DNA of 26,955 nt from a virus. This document shows positions 6,791-22,027 of this stretch, one piece after another; positions within the stretch are counted from its first letter, which is position 1, and each line of letters opens with the position of its first letter. The stretch is taken from positions 1 through 26,955 of the IMG/VR virus record IMGVR_UViG_3300020370_000027; one strand, written 5' to 3'. The notes below the pieces were generated by a model. The model had not been told where the DNA came from. It did no database searches and saw nothing but the letters and a program-made list of their open reading frames with translations. The translations under genes were made by a program, and so were the position numbers.

Positions 6791-7399
6791 TCATTTTGTA
6801 AAAGTTACCGTACTACTAGGATAAGTATCTTTATAGATAGGGTAAATATTGCTAGTTGTTCCTCCTCCTTGCGTAAAACTCCAAGCCCATGTGGTTAATG
6901 AACTACCTCCACTACCAGAATAACTATAACTTGCAGCAGTCCTGTTTAAAGATGTGCCATTAACATTTATCGTAGCGAAGGCATCACTATCAGAATTTGA
7001 AATAGTACCTGATACTTCTAGGTAAAAAATTCCCGCACCTGTTAAGTTGTGGTGTCTATTCCAAAGACTTGAAACAGAATTACCACCAAAAAAACTAGAT
7101 TTACTTGTAGCAGATGTAAAACTTCCATACTGTACACTATTAAAAACATCAACCCCAGTGGCTCTTATTTGAGTAGCTCCAGGACCTAATTGAATAGTCC
7201 AGACTCCAGGAGTAAAAGTAATTTGAAATTCTGCAGCTGCACCATACCATTCGTTAAAAAACATTGAAGCCTCTGAACTTTTACCTATCAATCCTCTGAT
7301 ATCAGAGTCATTTAAAGTACAAGCTGTACCACTACTACCGCCTGCTTCGGTGTGCATTTGATTTAAAGTTATATTACCACTAGATGGAATATCACTCAT
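6791..7399 (-). CDS. Beta-rich virion/fibre-associated protein, paralogue of the gene at 10720-11358
   Basis: The N-terminal 55 residues of this 202-residue protein carry the motif NITLNQMHTEAGGSSG then LNDSDIRGLIGKSS and FFNEWYGAA. This domain is common in marine phage tail and fibre proteins. The rest is Ser/Thr/Gly-rich predicted beta-strand. It aligns along its whole length with the 212-residue protein at 10720-11358, including the C-terminal TINVN ... NRTAASYSYS region. Its start overlaps the end of the S74 fibre gene by 8 bases, and the paralogue likewise closely follows the other S74 fibre gene. It probably sits at the fibre tip or attachment site; that is inferred from the pairing. 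Confidence 0.65.
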   Translation of the reverse strand: MSDIPSSGNITLNQMHTEAGGSSGTACTLNDSDIRGLIGKSSEASMFFNEWYGAAAEFQITFTPGVWTIQLGPGATQIRATGVDVFNSVQYGSFTSATSKSSFFGGNSVSSLWNRHHNLTGAGIFYLEVSGTISNSDSDAFATINVNGTSLNRTAASYSYSGSGGSSLTTWAWSFTQGGGTTSNIYPIYKDTYPSSTVTFTK

Positions 7400-8591
7400 T
7401 TTTTAGTTCCTCTATTTGTTTACTTAAATCTTTTACTGCTTCTATGAGTAGTCCTACAGTATTTGCATACTTCATGGTTTTTACTGTCCCTAGTTCTTTG
7501 TCTTCATGTTCATCTACTAGCTCTGGCACTACTTTCTCTACTTCGTTAGCTACTACTCCTATTTCTTTTGAGTTATTGGCTTTACGAGTAAAATGCACAC
7601 CTCTTAATTTTTTTACTTTATCTAAAGCGTTTTCTATTTGGTAAATGTCCTCTTTCAACGCTAGGTCAGAATATGCACCTACATTACCTGTAGCTGTAAA
7701 ATTACCACTAGTGTCAGTAGTCAACATAGTAGTTCCTGAATTATTTTGGACTAAAAAATTACCATCAAATTTAAGTATAGTGCTACCGCTTGCAGTGAAA
7801 TAAAGTCTATTCCTGCTATCAGCAGAACTAATCCAAGCGTCGTTAGGTAAAGCTGCATTTAGTTTAGTGCCTAATTGCGTTTGTATAGCAGAAGTCACAC
7901 CATCTAAATATCCTAATTCTGTTGAAGTCACATCGCTAACAGAAACATCGCCACTACCATCAGAAACTAAGGCTCTTGCTGTAGTAAGGTTTGCCATTTT
8001 GCTAAAAGCAATTGCAGCCGAAGCACTTATGTCAGCATTTTCTATATTAGATATGCTGTTACCTGTACCATTTGCATCAAAAGTTTTATTAGTAAAAGTA
8101 TCTGTAGTGCTTGCGGTCATAGTTCCTAAAGCAGTTCCGTTAATAGAAGAGCTCGATCCTAGATCTAAAGCATTAAAAGCATCTGTTATAGCTGCTCCAC
8201 TGCCAGCGCCGTCTGAAAAAACAGCTTTAATTTTACCCGTTGGAATAGTTACATTGGCTCCACTACCTTGAGAAATAATTATACTTTGTGATCCACTAGT
8301 ACCATTTTCAATAAACCATAATTTTGAAATAGTATTAGGGGCTATAGTAATAGTACAAGCAGAATCTAAACTTCCCGTATATTTAAGATATATTGCTCTG
8401 CCTGGGTCTGTTGAACCATCAGCTATTGTAGTTGTATGTGTATCAGCGTTAGTTGTAATGCTTTCAGTTCCATAACCTAAAGCCTCTCCAATTAATTCTA
8501 AATTTTCATTGGTACGAGTCCCCCAGGTACCTGATTCATCACCAGTTCCCATCTCTCTAAGTCTGAGATTATTATCGTAACTACTTGCCAT
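7392..8591 (-). CDS. Tail fibre with C-terminal peptidase S74 intramolecular chaperone
   Basis: This 399-residue fibre protein has an N-terminal part containing LREMGTGDESGTWGTRTN, a typical marine phage fibre start, then a Ser/Thr/Asn-rich repeat-like shaft. The C-terminal S74 chaperone domain starts at about residue 306 (AYSDLALKEDI). The dyad Ser308-Lys313 keeps the Ser-x4-Lys spacing of endosialidase chaperones. The Arg seen in the sister fibre's SDERLK is Ala here. The end is a coiled coil (IEAVKDLSKQIEELKNE). It should trimerise and then self-cleave to release the last 90 or so residues. GAGG stands 8 bases before the ATG. Confidence 0.85.
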   Translation of the reverse strand: MASSYDNNLRLREMGTGDESGTWGTRTNENLELIGEALGYGTESITTNADTHTTTIADGSTDPGRAIYLKYTGSLDSACTITIAPNTISKLWFIENGTSGSQSIIISQGSGANVTIPTGKIKAVFSDGAGSGAAITDAFNALDLGSSSSINGTALGTMTASTTDTFTNKTFDANGTGNSISNIENADISASAAIAFSKMANLTTARALVSDGSGDVSVSDVTSTELGYLDGVTSAIQTQLGTKLNAALPNDAWISSADSRNRLYFTASGSTILKFDGNFLVQNNSGTTMLTTDTSGNFTATGNVGAYSDLALKEDIYQIENALDKVKKLRGVHFTRKANNSKEIGVVANEVEKVVPELVDEHEDKELGTVKTMKYANTVGLLIEAVKDLSKQIEELKNE

Positions 8592-9707: not shown

Positions 9708-10723
9708 TCGCCTTGATCAGTAGGATAACGAATATATCCTTTTACCTGTTTTATTTCTAAAGTATTTTTGTCATACACCAAGCCATATATCCAAATAAAG
9801 TCATCTTCTCTACTTTCTGGCACAGGAAAATTAAGACTTTTTTCTTTGCAAAATTCTTTCATAATATCTTTAGTGGTTGTAAAGAAAACATCATACTCAT
9901 CTGCTTCTGTACCATCTTCATTAAAAATTTTTGCAAAAAAGAAAGTTGTTGGTGCGTAAATAGGAACCTCTGGTCTTGGTATAAAAGTATCTGGGTGTTT
10001 TTGATAATTACTTGTATGTTCTGTATCTGCTATAACCAATTTAAACTGTTTTTTACCTGTCACTGTGTTGTATTTTATAGCGTTCCATTCTTTATATGTG
10101 TAGCCTACATTAGGAACTTTAAAAGCATTTAATGTTTCTGTTGGGACATCTAAAAAAACATTGTACCAACTATATGTTTTTACATTCGTGTATGGCGGTC
10201 TTAAAGGTGCATCATCATGTTCTTGGTAAGTACCAATAATATTAAATCTATTACACTTCCATTCTTGATCTTTGCCAAATACTTTTTCTACTTCTTTTAT
10301 TAATTTATCAGATTGCCATAGTCCTATATTATAATCAGTTCTCACTAATTTTTTATTTACATAAACTTCATCATAAGTGTTTGTGCTTTTTGGCACAGCC
10401 ATATTATTTTCAATATTATAGGTATCTGTTTCTTTAGGACGTATTAAAGTAGAAAGAGTTAAAAATTCTTGATAGGTATTTGCTTCCCATAATTTTTGAT
10501 AATATTCAACATCTTTAGTTTCTACATAAGTACCATCACTTTCTTCGGTAAGAATTATTCCACTATCTGTTTTGTTCCATTCATAACGTAAATTTTCCTT
10601 TGTAATTGGGTCTTGTACCCATAAAGATATTCTATTGAAGGGTTTATCATTTTCATCAACATCAGGATTTATCCCTATATTTCCAAATTCTTCTGTATAT
10701 TTTGTTAATTTTATTTTGCTCAT
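9698..10723 (-). CDS. Unknown 341-residue protein of the fibre region
   Basis: I do not recognise this protein. It is soluble-looking, mixed alpha/beta and rich in aromatic and charged residues, with no membrane helix or signal peptide. Motifs that stand out are RISLWVQDPITKENLRYEW at about 31-49, a Pro-rich FIPRPEVPIYAPTTFFFAKI at about 246-265, and a well-folded-looking C-terminus (DFIWIYGLVYDKNTLEIKQV). Its composition differs from its Ser/Thr/Gly-rich fibre neighbours. It overlaps the gene before it by 4 bases (ATGA), so it belongs to the same operon. It could be a fibre chaperone or assembly protein, or a virion component; neither is shown by the sequence. Confidence 0.55.
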   Translation of the reverse strand: MSKIKLTKYTEEFGNIGINPDVDENDKPFNRISLWVQDPITKENLRYEWNKTDSGIILTEESDGTYVETKDVEYYQKLWEANTYQEFLTLSTLIRPKETDTYNIENNMAVPKSTNTYDEVYVNKKLVRTDYNIGLWQSDKLIKEVEKVFGKDQEWKCNRFNIIGTYQEHDDAPLRPPYTNVKTYSWYNVFLDVPTETLNAFKVPNVGYTYKEWNAIKYNTVTGKKQFKLVIADTEHTSNYQKHPDTFIPRPEVPIYAPTTFFFAKIFNEDGTEADEYDVFFTTTKDIMKEFCKEKSLNFPVPESREDDFIWIYGLVYDKNTLEIKQVKGYIRYPTDQGEWL

Positions 10724-11358
10724 GGGTTTCTGTTAAACACAATAGAACAAGAGTTTCCTGGAGCAGTAAAAGGAATCAGAGCAGAAGTATTATTGGCTGC
10801 AACAGTTTGGGTTATAGTCCATTGCCATTGAGTTCTATCTCCAGAAGAAACTACGTAAGTAGCATCACTTCTATTGTAAACATTACTGTTTATAGTGACT
10901 TTTTTAAATGCAGTATCGTTGTTAGCAACAGTTGCTGAAGAGCTATCAGTTGCAAATAACAGGGTAGTTGATTGATTTCCAGAGACATCACTATCTCCAG
11001 CAACATTAAAAGTTTCTATAGTTTGTCCACCTAAAAAATCAGAGTCAGCGTAGTCATTCATAGAGCCATAATTAGTACCTGTAGGTCTAAAGGTAGTGTT
11101 ATAGCCTTTATATCTTATATTTGACCCAGCAACGTATTGACTACCAGGAGTATCTTTATTTGTAGCACCGACAGTCATTGAAATGCTCCAATCGGCTGCT
11201 TTGTCATAGTAGTCATTCCAAGAAGCTGTAGCACCTGAACTCTTGCCTGTTAATGCTCTTATATCGCTATCATTAATTGATACTGTAGATCCAGAAGAGC
11301 CACCTACCTCAACGTGCATTTCATTTAAACTTATGGCACCTGAACTTGGAGTAGCCAT
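10720..11358 (-). CDS. Beta-rich virion/fibre-associated protein, paralogue of the gene at 6791-7399
   Basis: This 212-residue protein has an N-terminal domain with SGAISLNEMHVEVGGSSG, then INDSDIRALTGKSSGAT and WNDYYDKAADW. It matches the first 60 residues of the 6791-7399 product and the common marine phage tail domain. The rest is Ser/Thr/Asn/Gly-rich beta structure ending ALIPFTAPGNSCSIVFN. Its ATG shares one base with the stop of a 61-residue membrane protein gene, and it overlaps the next gene by 4 bases. It follows the S74 fibre at 11543-12814 in the same way its paralogue follows the other S74 fibre. Probably a fibre-tip or attachment protein. Confidence 0.65.
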   Translation of the reverse strand: MATPSSGAISLNEMHVEVGGSSGSTVSINDSDIRALTGKSSGATASWNDYYDKAADWSISMTVGATNKDTPGSQYVAGSNIRYKGYNTTFRPTGTNYGSMNDYADSDFLGGQTIETFNVAGDSDVSGNQSTTLLFATDSSSATVANNDTAFKKVTINSNVYNRSDATYVVSSGDRTQWQWTITQTVAANNTSALIPFTAPGNSCSIVFNRNP

Positions 11359-11543
11359 TATTTATTCCTAGAATGTTTACCATTCCCTTTATTATTTCCT
11401 GAGTCGTATTGCGTTAATTCTTTGAAATAATATTTTCTTATAGTATTAACCTTGTACCAAAAAATATTCATACCTCTGGGATTAGAAAGTTCTCCTATCA
11501 TAATTACTATACAAGCTAATAAAGGTATAAATATAAGTTCCAT
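11358..11543 (-). CDS. 61-residue single-pass membrane protein
   Basis: This small protein has a hydrophobic N-terminal helix (LIFIPLLACIVIMIGEL, about 3-19) and a basic, Asn/Lys-rich tail ending GNNKGNGKHSRNK. It starts in a TAATG overlap with the stop of the S74 fibre gene and shares one base with the next gene, so it is translated as part of the fibre operon. Layout is similar to the 44-residue protein at 6647-6781, which also lies close to a fibre module. No family recognised. Roles in lysis or as a tail-tip membrane peptide are both possible. Confidence 0.55.
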   Translation of the reverse strand: MELIFIPLLACIVIMIGELSNPRGMNIFWYKVNTIRKYYFKELTQYDSGNNKGNGKHSRNK

Positions 11544-12814
11544 TATTTACCCTCTAATTCTTTTACTCTGGCTGATAAATCTTTTACAGCTTCGATCAAT
11601 ACTGCTGTTAATCTGCTGTAATCTACAGACTTAGTACCCATTTCATCATCTGCTGTTAATACTATTTCTGGTAATATCTTTTCTACTTCTTGAGCTATAA
11701 CACCTATATTTTCTCTTTCATCTCTGGTGTAAGTGACACCTCGTAATTGCTCTACTTTATCTAAACCATCAGTTAAAGTTTCAATATTATCTTTTAGTCT
11801 TTCGTCTGAATAAGCTGTGACATTATCATTAAAAGTTGCAGCACCTGCTGCTGACATATCTAGCGTAAGAGCAGTAATTTCTGAGCCACCATCATTTCCT
11901 AAAAGTACAATATCCTTATCTGAAACTGTGGAACGAATGTTTAGGTTTTGTGATCCCATGTCAATGTTCCCTATCTCAGTTCCATCATCTTTAAACCTTA
12001 TGTGTTCTCCACCAGCATCAATAGTAATGTCTGAATTACTATCTAGTATTAAATCGCCTGTGCCATTGTCAGCTATATATGAATTATTGGTATCGTGGTA
12101 AATGGATAAATCATCTCCTGCACCAAATATTAACTGACCATTATCGCCTAATTTAACATTCTCATTAAAGGTTGCTCTACCTGCTTGTGACATATCTAGT
12201 CTTAAAGCAGTAATTTCTGAGCCATCATCATTCCCTTTAACTATAAAGTCTCCATCGCTAATTTCAGGCTTTAGCATAAAATTTGTGCCATCATTTGATA
12301 ATGAACCCCAAATCGTACCATTATCTTTTAAGTTTATATCTGCACCATTAGCATCAAGAATAATATCTCCTGCAACATCTATAGTTAAATCTCCTGAACT
12401 TAAATCTATTTCAGTGCCATCAATAGTAATGTTATCTACAGTAATACCACCATCAACATCTAGTGTTCCCGGAAGTGTGACATTACCACTAGCGTCTTCG
12501 TGCACAGCTTTACTTGCAGGCATGGTACAAAATACATCTTTAGTTCCTGAAGAAAAATTAACTGCGGAATCAGAATTAGAACTGCTTATAACTGTAGTTC
12601 TAGCCAATGTATCTGGAGAAGCGTCTGCTACTGTGCCAAGGCCTACTTCAAACTCATCTGCTGTTTGATGAACTATTGCGTAATAACAAGTATTAGTATT
12701 ACCAATACCTGCTACAAAAGTTTCAAAACCAGTTTCAGCGCCTGCTAAATTTACTGTGCCTGTGCCAGTAGTGGTAGTGGTTTCTTTTACCCTATCATTT
12801 AGGACAAGAGCCAT
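11543..12814 (-). CDS. Tail fibre with C-terminal peptidase S74 intramolecular chaperone
   Basis: This 423-residue fibre protein has an N-terminal domain (about 1-110) of the type that attaches to the virion in marine phages, including LNDRVKETTTTTGTGTVNL. A repeat-containing beta shaft follows to about 333. The S74 domain starts at AYSDERLKDNI with the dyad Ser336-Lys341 and continues with ENIGVIAQEVEKILPEIV, ending in a coiled coil (DLSARVKELEGK). Self-cleavage should occur just before Ser336 after trimerisation. A strong ribosome site (AGGAGG, 5 bases before the ATG) suggests high expression. The shaft holds a 112-residue internal duplication. It would bind the host surface. Confidence 0.88.
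   Translation of the reverse strand: MALVLNDRVKETTTTTGTGTVNLAGAETGFETFVAGIGNTNTCYYAIVHQTADEFEVGLGTVADASPDTLARTTVISSSNSDSAVNFSSGTKDVFCTMPASKAVHEDASGNVTLPGTLDVDGGITVDNITIDGTEIDLSSGDLTIDVAGDIILDANGADINLKDNGTIWGSLSNDGTNFMLKPEISDGDFIVKGNDDGSEITALRLDMSQAGRATFNENVKLGDNGQLIFGAGDDLSIYHDTNNSYIADNGTGDLILDSNSDITIDAGGEHIRFKDDGTEIGNIDMGSQNLNIRSTVSDKDIVLLGNDGGSEITALTLDMSAAGAATFNDNVTAYSDERLKDNIETLTDGLDKVEQLRGVTYTRDERENIGVIAQEVEKILPEIVLTADDEMGTKSVDYSRLTAVLIEAVKDLSARVKELEGK
11816..12394 (-). repeat. Internal duplication in the fibre shaft, period 112 codons
   Basis: Residues about 141-221 and 253-333 of the fibre are copies 336 bases apart (11816-12058 and 12152-12394). The best-conserved part reads GNDDGSEITALRLDM in one copy and GNDGGSEITALTLDM in the other, each followed by S-x-A-G-x-A-T-F-N-x-N-V. 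The DNA is still clearly similar there, for example gcagtaatttctgagcca in both copies on the plus strand. Confidence 0.8.
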
Positions 12815-14343: not shown

Positions 14344-15024
14344 TTAAGTTACATTTGTTCTTAGTGCATCAGCTCTGTATTCATCTCTTCTACTTTTGCC
14401 TTCTGCTCTATTTTTAAGTCTTGCTATTTCTTCCATAAATCTTTTTTCATATTGACCCAATATTTCTGGCTCTCCTTTTAAAAAGGTGTAAGCCTCAACT
14501 AAAGAGCCATACAATAAAGCGTTTCTTGCATTTGTTGATAACCAAGTTGTGCCACTATCAGAACCAGATGTTAAAGAAGTTGGTTTGTAGAGGTAGTGAA
14601 GTTCGGCTGTGTAGTTTGCGTCTGGAACTGGGCTTACTGTTATGGTAGATCCATTATTAGAAGCTGTAGAAAGTTCTTTATCAAAATCAGCGTAATATAA
14701 AGGCAACCCTCTTAAATTAGTATCGGCTGGATCTTCTGAATACTCTTGCATAAATGTAGGGTGCTTTTTTAAAAGATAGTGATAATCTCCACCAGAGTCT
14801 AATACTGCTAAAGAAAAACTAGCTACGTAGTCTGAAGGTGCTGTTAAAAATCTATTCCCAGATGTAAAAGTTCCAGTTACATTTTTTCTAAAAAAATCAA
14901 ATTCAACTAGTTCAAATATTCTTTCTTCTGTATTTTTAATAAAGTCTGCAATAGTATTAACAAAAGTAGTTTCTGTGCTATCACAAAAGTTTTTAATTAA
15001 ATTAGTAAGCTCTGTGTAAGTCAT
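14344..15024 (-). CDS. Head-tail adaptor protein (SU10 adaptor / T7 gp11-like)
   Basis: This 226-residue protein begins with MTYTELTNLIKNFCDSTETT and a helix NTIADFIKNTEERIFELVE. It is followed by a beta region with FLTAPSDYVASFSLAVL and a C-terminal helical part (NARNALLYGSLVEAYTFLKG, then YEKRFMEEIARLKNR). This helix-beta-helix layout is that of phage adaptor proteins that form a ring under the portal, often annotated as phage adaptor protein or tail tubular protein A. Together with the 223-residue protein at 15878-16549 it would build the neck of a short-tailed virion. The tail module order supports this. Confidence 0.72.
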   Translation of the reverse strand: MTYTELTNLIKNFCDSTETTFVNTIADFIKNTEERIFELVEFDFFRKNVTGTFTSGNRFLTAPSDYVASFSLAVLDSGGDYHYLLKKHPTFMQEYSEDPADTNLRGLPLYYADFDKELSTASNNGSTITVSPVPDANYTAELHYLYKPTSLTSGSDSGTTWLSTNARNALLYGSLVEAYTFLKGEPEILGQYEKRFMEEIARLKNRAEGKSRRDEYRADALRTNVT

Positions 15025-15041
15025 ATTTAAATTATATCAAA

Positions 15042-15878
15042 TTAGCCGGGAGTATTTATTTCTCCTCCCATACCAGAGTGATTAGTACAATAATAATAGA
15101 GTGTTGATGCTCCAACTGCAACGGTTATTTGGGTATATGCTCCAGCATTACCAGGAGTTCCATTAGTAGTTACGCCTGTGGTGTATTCAGCTCCACCAAT
15201 AGCATGAGTTCCATTTGGCGTTGTTGAAAATCTTAAAGGATGTCCAGAATTACTTGAGTCAGATTGGTCAAATTTGAAAGTTTGTCCTTCATTTAAAGTT
15301 AAAGTAGGACTGACTACGCCATCTACATAGAATTTATTACCAGTTCCATAGAAGTTTGTTCCAGAAGCAACTGTAATAGTAAAGTTTGTAAAAGTACTAG
15401 TGACCGTAGGACTACCTAAAGCACTAGTAGCAGCGTAACCTAGAATTGAAACATCTTGAGTTATATTACCTGTAATAGTTGTTGTTCCTAAAGCAGTAGA
15501 TGCAGATACTCCAGATACATCAACTAACGCAGTGTTATCATTTTCAATAACAATAATAGTTCCTAAATTACTAGACAATTTAGCTAATTCAAATTTAGCA
15601 GGAATAGTATTAGGTAACATAGAAAAGTTTTTTGTAATGCTAGGAGAAGTTACAACTACAAAGCCATTGCCTCCATCTTCTGTTCTATCTGGTCTAGGAT
15701 TAAATAAAGCTTCTGGGTCTGCCGCATGAGTTCTTGGTTCTAATTGTGGGTGTTTTGGGCTCCATTGATCAGGACCCACTAATAGGCCATCCCAAGTTCT
15801 TTTCATATCTTTTAGTTTGTATCTAAATCCAGATATGTCGCATATTCCGTATGCTTGTTTACCTTTAGCGTAAGACAT
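15042..15878 (-). CDS. Virion protein with repeat unit and C-terminal cupredoxin-like domain
   Basis: This 278-residue protein has three parts. Residues 1-50 hold the phage motif YGICDISGFRYKLKDMK ... WSPKHPQLEP. Residues about 105-160 contain two copies of the A-S-T-A-L-G-T-x-T beta unit also found in the 8629-9600 protein. Residues about 165-278 look like a cupredoxin: FKFDQSDSSNSGHPLRF, then STLYYYCTNHSGMGGEI. His213, Cys264, His267 and Met270 match the four type-1 copper ligands, with the Cys-x2-His-x2-Met spacing of amicyanin. The gene shares one base with the upstream connector gene. It is probably on the virion surface or neck; copper binding is predicted, not proven. Confidence 0.7.
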   Translation of the reverse strand: MSYAKGKQAYGICDISGFRYKLKDMKRTWDGLLVGPDQWSPKHPQLEPRTHAADPEALFNPRPDRTEDGGNGFVVVTSPSITKNFSMLPNTIPAKFELAKLSSNLGTIIVIENDNTALVDVSGVSASTALGTTTITGNITQDVSILGYAATSALGSPTVTSTFTNFTITVASGTNFYGTGNKFYVDGVVSPTLTLNEGQTFKFDQSDSSNSGHPLRFSTTPNGTHAIGGAEYTTGVTTNGTPGNAGAYTQITVAVGASTLYYYCTNHSGMGGEINTPG

Positions 15879-16549
15879 TAGTTACCTTGTGAATATGGCG
15901 TAATTCTAAAAGAAGCTCGATCTTCATCTTCGTCAGCGGCTCTTCTAAATTCTTCTTCGTATATTATTTTTAATTGCTCTGTTAGTTGTGGATTTCTTTT
16001 CATAGATAAGTAATACGCCAAGCCAGCAACAAAACAAGGATAAAATCTAAATGGTAAATCCATAGTGTTGGTTGCTTTATCAGCATCATCCATTCTTACC
16101 ATTTTATTAAATACTAAAATATCAGTAGAGTTTTCTGGGGCTGGCCAAACTTTTAAAACTGGGGTATTTTGTTTATCTACAAAAAATTGAGTAGGTCTAG
16201 CTTTAGTGCTTTTGGTTGGAATATTAATGTATTCACTTCTGCTAACTCTAGACATTTGTGTATCGGTAGTAGTACCACCTTCTGTTCTTCTTAGTACAAC
16301 ATCTAAAATATCTATAACATTTGAATTTAGTGTGTATTCTCTAGTTCCCTCAGTTACTGTTTGTGTAGTTTCAGATATGGTCCATTGATTTAAACCTCTA
16401 TTAGCCCATTCAGCTAACATTAAATTAATAGATCTTCTTGCAGATTTTAAATCATATCCAGTTCTTAACTCTAACCCACATCTTTCATAAGCTTCTTCAA
16501 TAAACTCTGCGACATTTGGTTCAAAGTCTGTGCTGTTTGATGTTGCCAT
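15878..16549 (-). CDS. Head-completion / tail accessory protein, P22 gp4-like
   Basis: This 223-residue protein has a helical N-terminal part with VAEFIEEAYERCGLELRTG and ARRSINLMLAEWANRGLNQW. Next comes a small beta domain with the sequence REYTLNSNVIDILDVVLRR, and then a C-terminal helical part (MDLPFRFYPCFVAGLAYYLS and a charged end). It resembles the gp4 tail accessory factor family of P22-like phages, which binds below the portal and starts tail assembly. GAGG precedes the ATG by 7 bases. The next protein in the order is the 278-residue virion protein, and the second adaptor lies just beyond it. Confidence 0.7.
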   Translation of the reverse strand: MATSNSTDFEPNVAEFIEEAYERCGLELRTGYDLKSARRSINLMLAEWANRGLNQWTISETTQTVTEGTREYTLNSNVIDILDVVLRRTEGGTTTDTQMSRVSRSEYINIPTKSTKARPTQFFVDKQNTPVLKVWPAPENSTDILVFNKMVRMDDADKATNTMDLPFRFYPCFVAGLAYYLSMKRNPQLTEQLKIIYEEEFRRAADEDEDRASFRITPYSQGN

Positions 16550-16551
16550 GT

Positions 16552-17232
16552 TTAATCCTCATCATTATATAAATTATTAAAAGTTATCCTAGGATCTAAA
16601 TAACTCTCATGGCCTTCAGCAGAATGTAGATGTTGTGAAGGAGTAAAATCAGGTGCTCCTTCGCCAGTTCTCCACAAAGCCGGGCTAGTTGCTCTAACTC
16701 TATTGTTAGGAAGTGCAACTATATTGCCAGTCCACTTTCCAGCGTCTGTTAAATATATCACATGTGACTGTTTATGTTGAGCAGGATCATCTGCTATTTC
16801 ATGTTCTGTATAATCCACAGTAAACAAATATTTACCTTGATAAAATTTATTATCAATCTTGCATAGCCACGGAGAAGAGCTAACTCTGTCCATAGTTATG
16901 ATTGAATGGTTTCTAGATTCACAATCCCAAGGTTGACATAAATGATCTTCCATAGGTTCTGGCCATTCATCTAAAGGTACATCAGCTACTAATGCTTGAA
17001 TAGGCATTCTTGCCCACATAGCGCCACCGTGAATATTGCCCTCTTTCCAATCCTCGTCATCTATCTCGCACCCGGTAAAGACAACTTGAAAGCTAAGTGA
17101 TCTATCAGGGATAGTATTTACAGCTATTGCTAGCGCATGTAAATACTCTCCGTGATAGCGTAAATGATTACATGTGAACTCTCTTCTGACCCAACATTTA
17201 AAGTATGGGACATTGCTCATCAAATATGGCAT
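16552..17232 (-). CDS. Conserved marine-phage protein of unknown function
   Basis: I know close relatives of this 226-residue protein in other tailed phages but no assigned function. Conserved-looking parts are GGAMWARMPIQALVADVPLD at about 69-88, QPWDCESRNHSIITMDR at about 99-115, FTVDYTEHEIADDPAQHKQ near 136-154, and the C-terminal HLHSAEGHESYLDPRITFNN. It is rich in Trp, His and acidic residues, and has no membrane segment. The ATG at 17232 has GAGG 7 bases upstream and is preferred to the in-frame ATG four codons later. It lies in the neck gene cluster, so a head or neck virion protein is likely. Confidence 0.6.
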   Translation of the reverse strand: MPYLMSNVPYFKCWVRREFTCNHLRYHGEYLHALAIAVNTIPDRSLSFQVVFTGCEIDDEDWKEGNIHGGAMWARMPIQALVADVPLDEWPEPMEDHLCQPWDCESRNHSIITMDRVSSSPWLCKIDNKFYQGKYLFTVDYTEHEIADDPAQHKQSHVIYLTDAGKWTGNIVALPNNRVRATSPALWRTGEGAPDFTPSQHLHSAEGHESYLDPRITFNNLYNDED

Positions 17233-21550: not shown

Positions 21551-22027
21551 CTATAAAGTTTTAATATCATCTGGATCACTAATGGTTCCGATTACCTCGT
21601 CATCATTAATAATTCTTACCTCGTGATTGTCTTCCAAACGAAAGCGAGCTCCCGCATATCTGCCAATCAATACCCAATCTTTTTCTTTACACCAAGCCTC
21701 ACCTTCAAATTTATCATCGTCTTTATATGCGGTAGGACCTACTTTTAAAACATAGGCAACTACTGTAGCTAAAGATTCTCGATCTAAAGTAGATGTGGTT
21801 AAGTGTATGCCACCTTCGGTTACGCCTTTACCTTTGTAAGGTAAAACCAATATACGCCAGCCAGTGGGATTAGGCATTCTTTCAAGTAATGATTTGTCTA
21901 ACAGTGTAGGATCTAAAACTCTGTCTTCAGTTTTGACATAAGCTTTATCTACATCTGATCTTGCTGATTCTTCTCTTGCTTTTTTTCTTTCTTCTGCGAT
22001 GTGGTTTGGAACTGCTAGTTCGGTCAT
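21551..22027 (-). CDS. GroES-like co-chaperonin (viral cpn10) with N-terminal extension
   Basis: Residues about 52-150 of this 158-residue protein follow the GroES fold. The first strand is PTGWRILVLPYKG (54-66), the mobile-loop region (GKGVTEGGIHLTTSTLDRE, 66-84) holds GGIHL where GroES has GGIVL, and strand ATVVAYVLKVGP (87-98) is followed by WCKEKDWVLIGRYAGARFRL and the closing VRIINDDEVIGTI. About 50 charged residues precede the domain, which bacterial GroES lacks. It would cap the host GroEL during folding of the capsid protein, as T4 gp31 does. It lies directly before the scaffold gene. No GroEL gene is present in the window. Confidence 0.85.
   Translation of the reverse strand: MTELAVPNHIAEERKKAREESARSDVDKAYVKTEDRVLDPTLLDKSLLERMPNPTGWRILVLPYKGKGVTEGGIHLTTSTLDRESLATVVAYVLKVGPTAYKDDDKFEGEAWCKEKDWVLIGRYAGARFRLEDNHEVRIINDDEVIGTISDPDDIKTL

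Follow-up and report, generated by a model that had tools for sequence, protein, structure and literature searches.

Layout of the locus

The window, by which we mean the whole stretch of DNA analysed here, comprises 26,955 nucleotides from a marine virus of bacteria. An open reading frame for a 278-residue protein is present on its minus strand, and the ATG of this gene overlaps the stop codon of the gene upstream (TAATG). The features of the locus are collected in Table 1. The protein does not begin with a signal peptide (its start is MSYAKGKQAYG), and the HxH motif is absent from the whole 278-residue sequence. Three of the four putative ligands lie in the stretch YYYCTNHSGMGG, which has the pattern Cys-x2-His-x2-Met. 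An initial annotation of this DNA had proposed a cupredoxin-like domain with a type-1 copper ligand set of His213, Cys264, His267 and Met270 and with this spacing, and both the residues and the spacing are exact in the reading frame and its codons. In terms of the extent of the domain, the proposed domain itself was upheld but its boundary was not, as its start lies slightly before position 15380.

Table 1. Features of the window around the gene for the 278-residue protein.
Feature	Position	Strand	Evidence or remarks
Upstream gene, SU10-type adaptor	15878..16549	-	PF24175 (SU10_adaptor), E 2.2e-14
278-residue protein gene	15042..15878	-	N-terminal module, low-confidence linker and predicted C-terminal cupredoxin domain
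N-terminal module, residues 1-66	15681..15878	-	PHROG 28581, unknown function; zinc-ribbon-like
Linker, residues 67-160	15399..15680	-	pLDDT <50 over most of its length; short GxxxTSALG repeats
Predicted cupredoxin domain, residues 163-278	15045..15392	-	Structure prediction, structure search, alignment
His213 codon, putative ligand 1, in GHPLRFS	15240..15242	-	Alignment conservation
Cys264 codon, putative ligand 2	15087..15089	-	Alignment conservation
His267 codon, putative ligand 3	15078..15080	-	Alignment conservation
Met270 codon, putative axial ligand	15069..15071	-	Alignment conservation
Downstream gene, second SU10-adaptor-family protein	14344..15024	-	PF24175, E 4.8e-23

A structure prediction for the full-length protein was of low confidence overall (pLDDT 64.7) and gives no arrangement of the parts; residues 61-160 were mostly of low confidence. 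In several relatives the N-terminal module contains a CxxC...CxxC pattern, of which three of the four Cys residues are replaced in the window copy (CDIS...GPDQ), and all of its zinc-ribbon matches in Pfam were below threshold. With four Cys residues in some relatives and degenerate forms in others (L010, L011 and L035 among the loci compared), the module is a possible second metal site on the same protein.

Both genes flanking the 278-residue protein gene match the adaptor family of the tail of phage SU10 (Kuravirus). In SU10, the adaptor ring joins the portal and the nozzle and docks the long tail fibres (PMC9509320). In each of the 160 related loci examined, a homolog of at least one of the two window adaptor proteins lay close by, and the annotations of homologs of domain-bearing proteins designate them as tail fibre, baseplate or virion structural proteins. 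On the basis of gene order and homology, we infer that the 278-residue protein is a neck-region virion protein, in support of the neck or virion association suggested by the initial annotation.

Other genes of the window are described here for completeness. A 226-residue protein in the structural block (16552-17232, minus strand) matches PHROG 3704, 'ferredoxin' (E 8e-28), and has no Pfam match. Two fibre-like proteins (7392-8591 and 11543-12814, both minus) end in an intramolecular chaperone domain (Peptidase_S74, PF13884). The products of 6791-7399 and 10720-11358 (both minus) have an N-terminal module in common (PHROG 26746) and differ in their C-terminal parts, and are thus further modular virion proteins. 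A GroES-like co-chaperonin (PHROG 3188; 21551-22027, minus) is encoded among the head genes, as it is in phage 023Pt_psg01.

Predicted fold and homology of the C-terminal domain

The structure of residues 163-278 was predicted with AlphaFold2, using as input an alignment of 32 copies from the window and from metagenomic viruses. The resulting model was of high confidence (pLDDT 94.9, pTM 0.88). When the model was compared with the PDB using Foldseek, cupredoxin-fold copper proteins accounted for 49 of the 50 matches listed, with probabilities of at least 0.94. They included CueO and other multicopper oxidases, laccases, rusticyanin, three-domain nitrite reductases and AcoP. Scores against these solved cupredoxins were modest (best E 9.4e-4, query TM 0.44-0.61), as is expected for a small divergent domain, and the list was consistent. 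The putative ligands occupy canonical positions along the chain: one strand opens at His213, another closes at Cys264, and the loop after the latter contains His267 and Met270. This agrees with the type-1 copper pattern of a His followed by Cys-x(2-4)-His-x(2-4)-Met in the loop between the last two strands. In a Foldseek search of BFVD, we also noticed 'Beta-sandwich proteins' of Pithovirus and Marseillevirus with a similar fold (A0A481Z6J5, A0A481Z7Q7 and A0A481YVH3).

Curated models did not identify the domain in the window protein. Pfam gave no match to it, and NCBIfam gave no cupredoxin match to the protein, only one match below the cut-off to an anchor-domain model. A phmmer search of the PDB with the window protein returned chance matches only (best E 0.41), and a sequence profile search of the PDB gave nothing significant, mainly antibody chains. 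Among the relatives, the Pfam Copper-bind model (PF00127) was touched by 4 of 32 (best E 0.06), and curated cupredoxin models in general reached E values of 0.06 to 0.1. When the diverse alignment described below was scanned with NCBIfam and Pfam, the results were weak unrelated matches and, for each, one plastocyanin or Copper-bind match near E 0.09.

Homology was detected by more sensitive comparison. When the diverse alignment of the phage domain was compared with an alignment of PF00127 members by hhalign, P was 2.7e-6, and the first His and the C..H loop were aligned. A secreted protein encoded on the genome of Prochlorococcus MIT 9201 (L387, 1498-1902, minus strand; 134 residues with a signal-peptide-like start) passes the PF00127 cut-off and also matches the phage-domain profile at 40 bits with the four ligands in register, and is thus intermediate between PF00127 and the phage domain. 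Its gene adjoins a dehydroquinase-like gene. A phage baseplate-type protein with several cupredoxin-like domains (L523) likewise scores above the PF00127 cut-off. Taking into account the predicted fold, the profile homology and the bridging Prochlorococcus protein, we attribute the missing curated-model match to a limit of sensitivity; a match above a model's cut-off is an annotation convention and not a property of the fold. By computed fold and homology, residues 163-278 are predicted to form a true cupredoxin domain.

Retention and loss of the putative ligands

The conservation of the four residues was examined in a diverse alignment of 28 sequences (mean identity 49%). Eight of 107 columns were invariant, and four of these were His213, Cys264, His267 and Met270. 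The probability that four columns named beforehand all fall within the invariant set is 1.4e-5, and the motif is therefore not a chance one. We then gathered copies of the domain from viral contigs and from phage and cellular genomes, 358 of them distinct and 353 of these with a complete site. His-Cys-His-Met was present in 344 of the 353, a raw count that is biased upward because many loci were fetched by peptide patterns including the motif, the phage set obtained with tblastn and the gp7 set being less affected. Counted by cluster, 56 of 61 had the set at 70% identity and 16 of 19 at 50%. The spacing between the second His and the Met was two residues in 247 copies and three in 97; the length of the loop thus varies and the ligands stay.

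In the exceptions, the two His residues and the Cys were missing together, save for a single loss of Met alone; partial loss of the His, Cys and His trio did not occur among the 353 complete copies. The protein of S-RIM4 is the sole one without Met in which His, Cys and His are intact, and Met is the weakest ligand of type-1 sites. Small cyanophage proteins of the PSS2 type (the PSS2 gp080 group) have DATM, AATM or YAPM at the site, and gp7-like baseplate proteins show KGTL or KATL instead of HCHM in their second domain; the profile still matches both groups. In the two-domain gp7-like proteins of cyanophages, the set was found in 45 of 50 rows for the first domain (some of the others being incomplete) and in 2 of 50 for the second, the rest lacking the set or being incomplete. 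In the first domain of L523, the first His is kept and the Cys loop is missing at the aligned position. These degenerate copies indicate that the domain is usable without the metal site.

Ligands that hold a metal would be expected to stay or go as a unit; residues needed for packing or folding would not. The pattern therefore favours a working metal site in copies like that of the window, whose domain retains a complete, putative metal site of the type-1 kind (His, Cys, His, Met). The initial annotation would have been refuted by another predicted fold or by a lack of conservation of the four residues, and neither outcome was observed. Structure prediction returned this fold and no other, with cupredoxins making up nearly all of the PDB matches listed, and the ligands proved to be conserved rather than lost in the compiled copies.

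Spread among phages and cells

A query with the N-terminal module alone fetched 80 loci, and in only 6 of them was the cupredoxin domain present. Most of the other module proteins among these loci stop at about 100-130 residues or have C-terminal parts of a different kind. In the Pelagibacter phages HTVC023P and HTVC027P and the Roseobacter phage CRP-901, the adaptor and the module protein are both without the domain. On the other hand, the adaptor of phage 023Pt_psg01, a homolog of the upstream gene product in Table 1, bears the domain as an N-terminal fusion. The domain also occurs on tail fibres of the Pelagibacter phages EXVC032P, HTVC028P and Mosig and of a Fussvirus, on the 'virion structural' protein gp134 of S-TIM5, on the proximal tail fibre of P-SSM2, and on baseplate and structural proteins of cyanomyoviruses. 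One cyanophage homolog is named 'Immunoglobulin domain-containing protein'. Overall, carriers comprise many cyanophages, some pelagiphages and hundreds of metagenomic contigs; cultured carriers include S-TIM5, P-SSM2, P-HM2, Syn1, HTVC028P and EXVC032P. The domain is an optional module, and its presence or absence on adaptor-region proteins, fibres and baseplates is the behaviour of a display module.

Three viral contigs (L521, L523 and L525) encode on their plus strand a virion-like protein of more than 1,660 residues in which about six cupredoxin-like domains, with the ligands in some and without them in others, follow one another in tandem; the protein also has several YHYH stretches (PF14240) and matches baseplate wedge PHROGs. 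YHYH is also found around the intact and degenerate cupredoxin domains of the gp7-like baseplate proteins of S-CAM22 and S-RIM4 (L362 and L363). This combination points to YHYH as a possible member of the metal-related set to which the cupredoxin domains of gp7-like proteins belong.

The domain was also found in cells. A chromosomal lipoprotein of SAR86 (L099, 5857-6405), with a signal sequence ending in LAAC, carries it with the same four ligands. Within its genus, 5 of 8 genomes had a match to this form, and within its family 17 of 40, some of the matches lying in frames of roughly 320 or 570-600 residues; a plasmid search for it gave no match. Members of the lipoprotein family, to which Pfam is blind, were noticed at four further loci (L098, L102, L388 and L389). 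The SAR86 proteins differ from the phage proteins in being cellular and chromosomal and in having a lipobox signal. Located at the cell surface or in the periplasm, they are extracytoplasmic, where copper is available.

Discussion

We considered several explanations for these observations. The cupredoxin fold might serve purely as a structural or adhesive beta-sandwich that binds no metal in life, the four residues being kept for packing. Metal-free use is indicated by the ligand-less copies of the PSS2 gp080 group and the gp7-like second domains, and some members weakly match carbohydrate-binding or adhesin modules (CBM_4_9, E 0.0046). A packing role, however, would need the residues in the degenerate copies too, or would lose them singly; instead, all three strong ligands go as a set. 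Few other positions are as rigidly kept as the four ligands, and a free conserved Cys beside two His and a Met would otherwise be unexplained, so that we regard this explanation as unlikely. Another candidate is a real site in which zinc, or some other metal than copper, acts as a structural staple. Virions are assembled in the cytoplasm, where there is zinc and not copper, it is known that cupredoxins made recombinantly acquire zinc there, and the N-terminal module of relatives itself resembles a zinc ribbon. An axial Met with a C-x2-H-x2/3-M loop is nevertheless how type-1 copper sites are arranged; Met would be of little use in such a staple, but 344 copies have retained it, and S-RIM4 has the only protein in which it is missing beside an intact His, Cys and His. 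A zinc staple accordingly seems quite improbable to us.

Two further explanations appear very improbable. Plastocyanin genes are known in cyanophages, and together with the secreted Prochlorococcus relative they might point to a host-derived auxiliary electron carrier, a plastocyanin substitute made during infection and not part of the virion. Against this, the 278-residue protein has no signal peptide, its domain is fused to a module whose gene overlaps the adaptor gene, and its relatives sit on tail fibres and baseplate proteins. The second is that an Ig-like or other beta-sandwich was misread as a cupredoxin, as the name given to the cyanophage homolog and the antibody chains, all insignificant, of the PDB sequence profile search might imply. 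The first 50 PDB structure matches, however, contain no Ig domain and list copper proteins instead, and profile homology links the domain to PF00127 members and to the bridging Prochlorococcus protein. We see next to no room for either explanation.

The reading that we consider probable is a virion module that is optional, is displayed on the surface and preserves a type-1-like metal site, and that would make an accessory contact with the host; its copper, its place on the particle and its function are put forward here as proposals. Gene order, homology and the low-confidence linker lead us to picture a protein based at the neck, with a flexible tether leading to a cupredoxin tip. The N-terminal module would dock at the adaptor or neck, and the flexible linker would keep the cupredoxin domain clear of the particle, at the tip, facing the medium and the host surface. 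In the reducing cytoplasm of the host, the site would be made empty or zinc-filled. As the host cytoplasm is copper-poor, copper would be loaded after lysis, or another soft metal would be taken up in its place. The bound metal may then stiffen the loop bearing three of the four ligands, and the domain may act as an accessory adhesion module, as is thought for Ig-like domains on other phages. In our own estimate, metal binding in life is likely and copper is somewhat favoured as the metal, whereas a role in adhesion or recognition is plausible but tentative. Electron transfer, though possible, is unlikely because no redox partner is in sight.

Several known systems resemble the phage domain in part. 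With the plastocyanin/azurin family of PF00127, including amicyanin and rusticyanin, it has in common the fold, the order of the ligands and a short ligand loop, which in amicyanin is C-x2-H-x2-M. It differs from this family in being too divergent for the Pfam model and in residing on a virion-type protein without a signal peptide. In addition, its first His is followed by Pro and not Asn, and a long conserved YTTGV..GTPG..GAYT stretch lies between His and Cys. The type-1 domains of CueO-type multicopper oxidases and of nitrite reductases are its best structural matches, and the HPxHxHG motif of the oxidases has His-Pro at the first ligand, as in the phage domain. Identity with a multicopper oxidase was rejected, as the window protein has a single cupredoxin domain, no trinuclear site and none of the HxH motifs of that centre. 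The Ig-like accessory domains of tailed phages are likewise optional beta-sandwiches found at either end of many unrelated virion proteins, but they belong to another fold family and lack the metal-ligand set.

HxH tail fibres of the T4 gp37 type bind iron, and in the 'Ferrojan Horse' hypothesis such metal binding is proposed for marine phages too (PMC11705849). As proposed for the phage cupredoxin, such fibres hold metal ligands on the outside of the virion. In gp37, however, the iron is held by HxH in a trimeric fibre, whereas the phage domain has a cupredoxin site; with no HxH in the window protein, identity with an iron-binding tail fibre was rejected.

Cupredoxins and accessory domains of virions are each known, and a complete type-1 set on virion proteins was not found in the open-access literature searched. 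In that literature, judged by titles and the beginnings of abstracts, we found no paper describing a virion cupredoxin domain; as the search covered open-access papers, this absence is weak evidence of novelty. The consulted part of the SU10 tail paper (PMC9509320) does not mention a cupredoxin domain, nor does the main text of a paper on HTVC023P-type pelagiphages mention copper or cupredoxin. Metal sites of virions are rarely documented, the main case being iron in tail fibres, which is also the nearest published concept to a virion copper site.

Many proteins annotated as 'hypothetical' or 'tail fiber' and invisible to Pfam gain meaning from the domain, and this unnoticed class of virion domains is testable because cultured carriers exist. 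One can go further and suppose that necks, baseplates and tail fibres of marine phages carry working type-1 copper sites that are loaded with copper from seawater or the lysate and aid the recognition or engagement of host surface components, and that phages thereby use and move copper in the ocean. We regard this wider proposal as rather doubtful. If true, a blue-copper-type site would give the virions of abundant marine phages a redox-active metal, and copper loading would be the copper counterpart of the iron 'Ferrojan Horse' idea.
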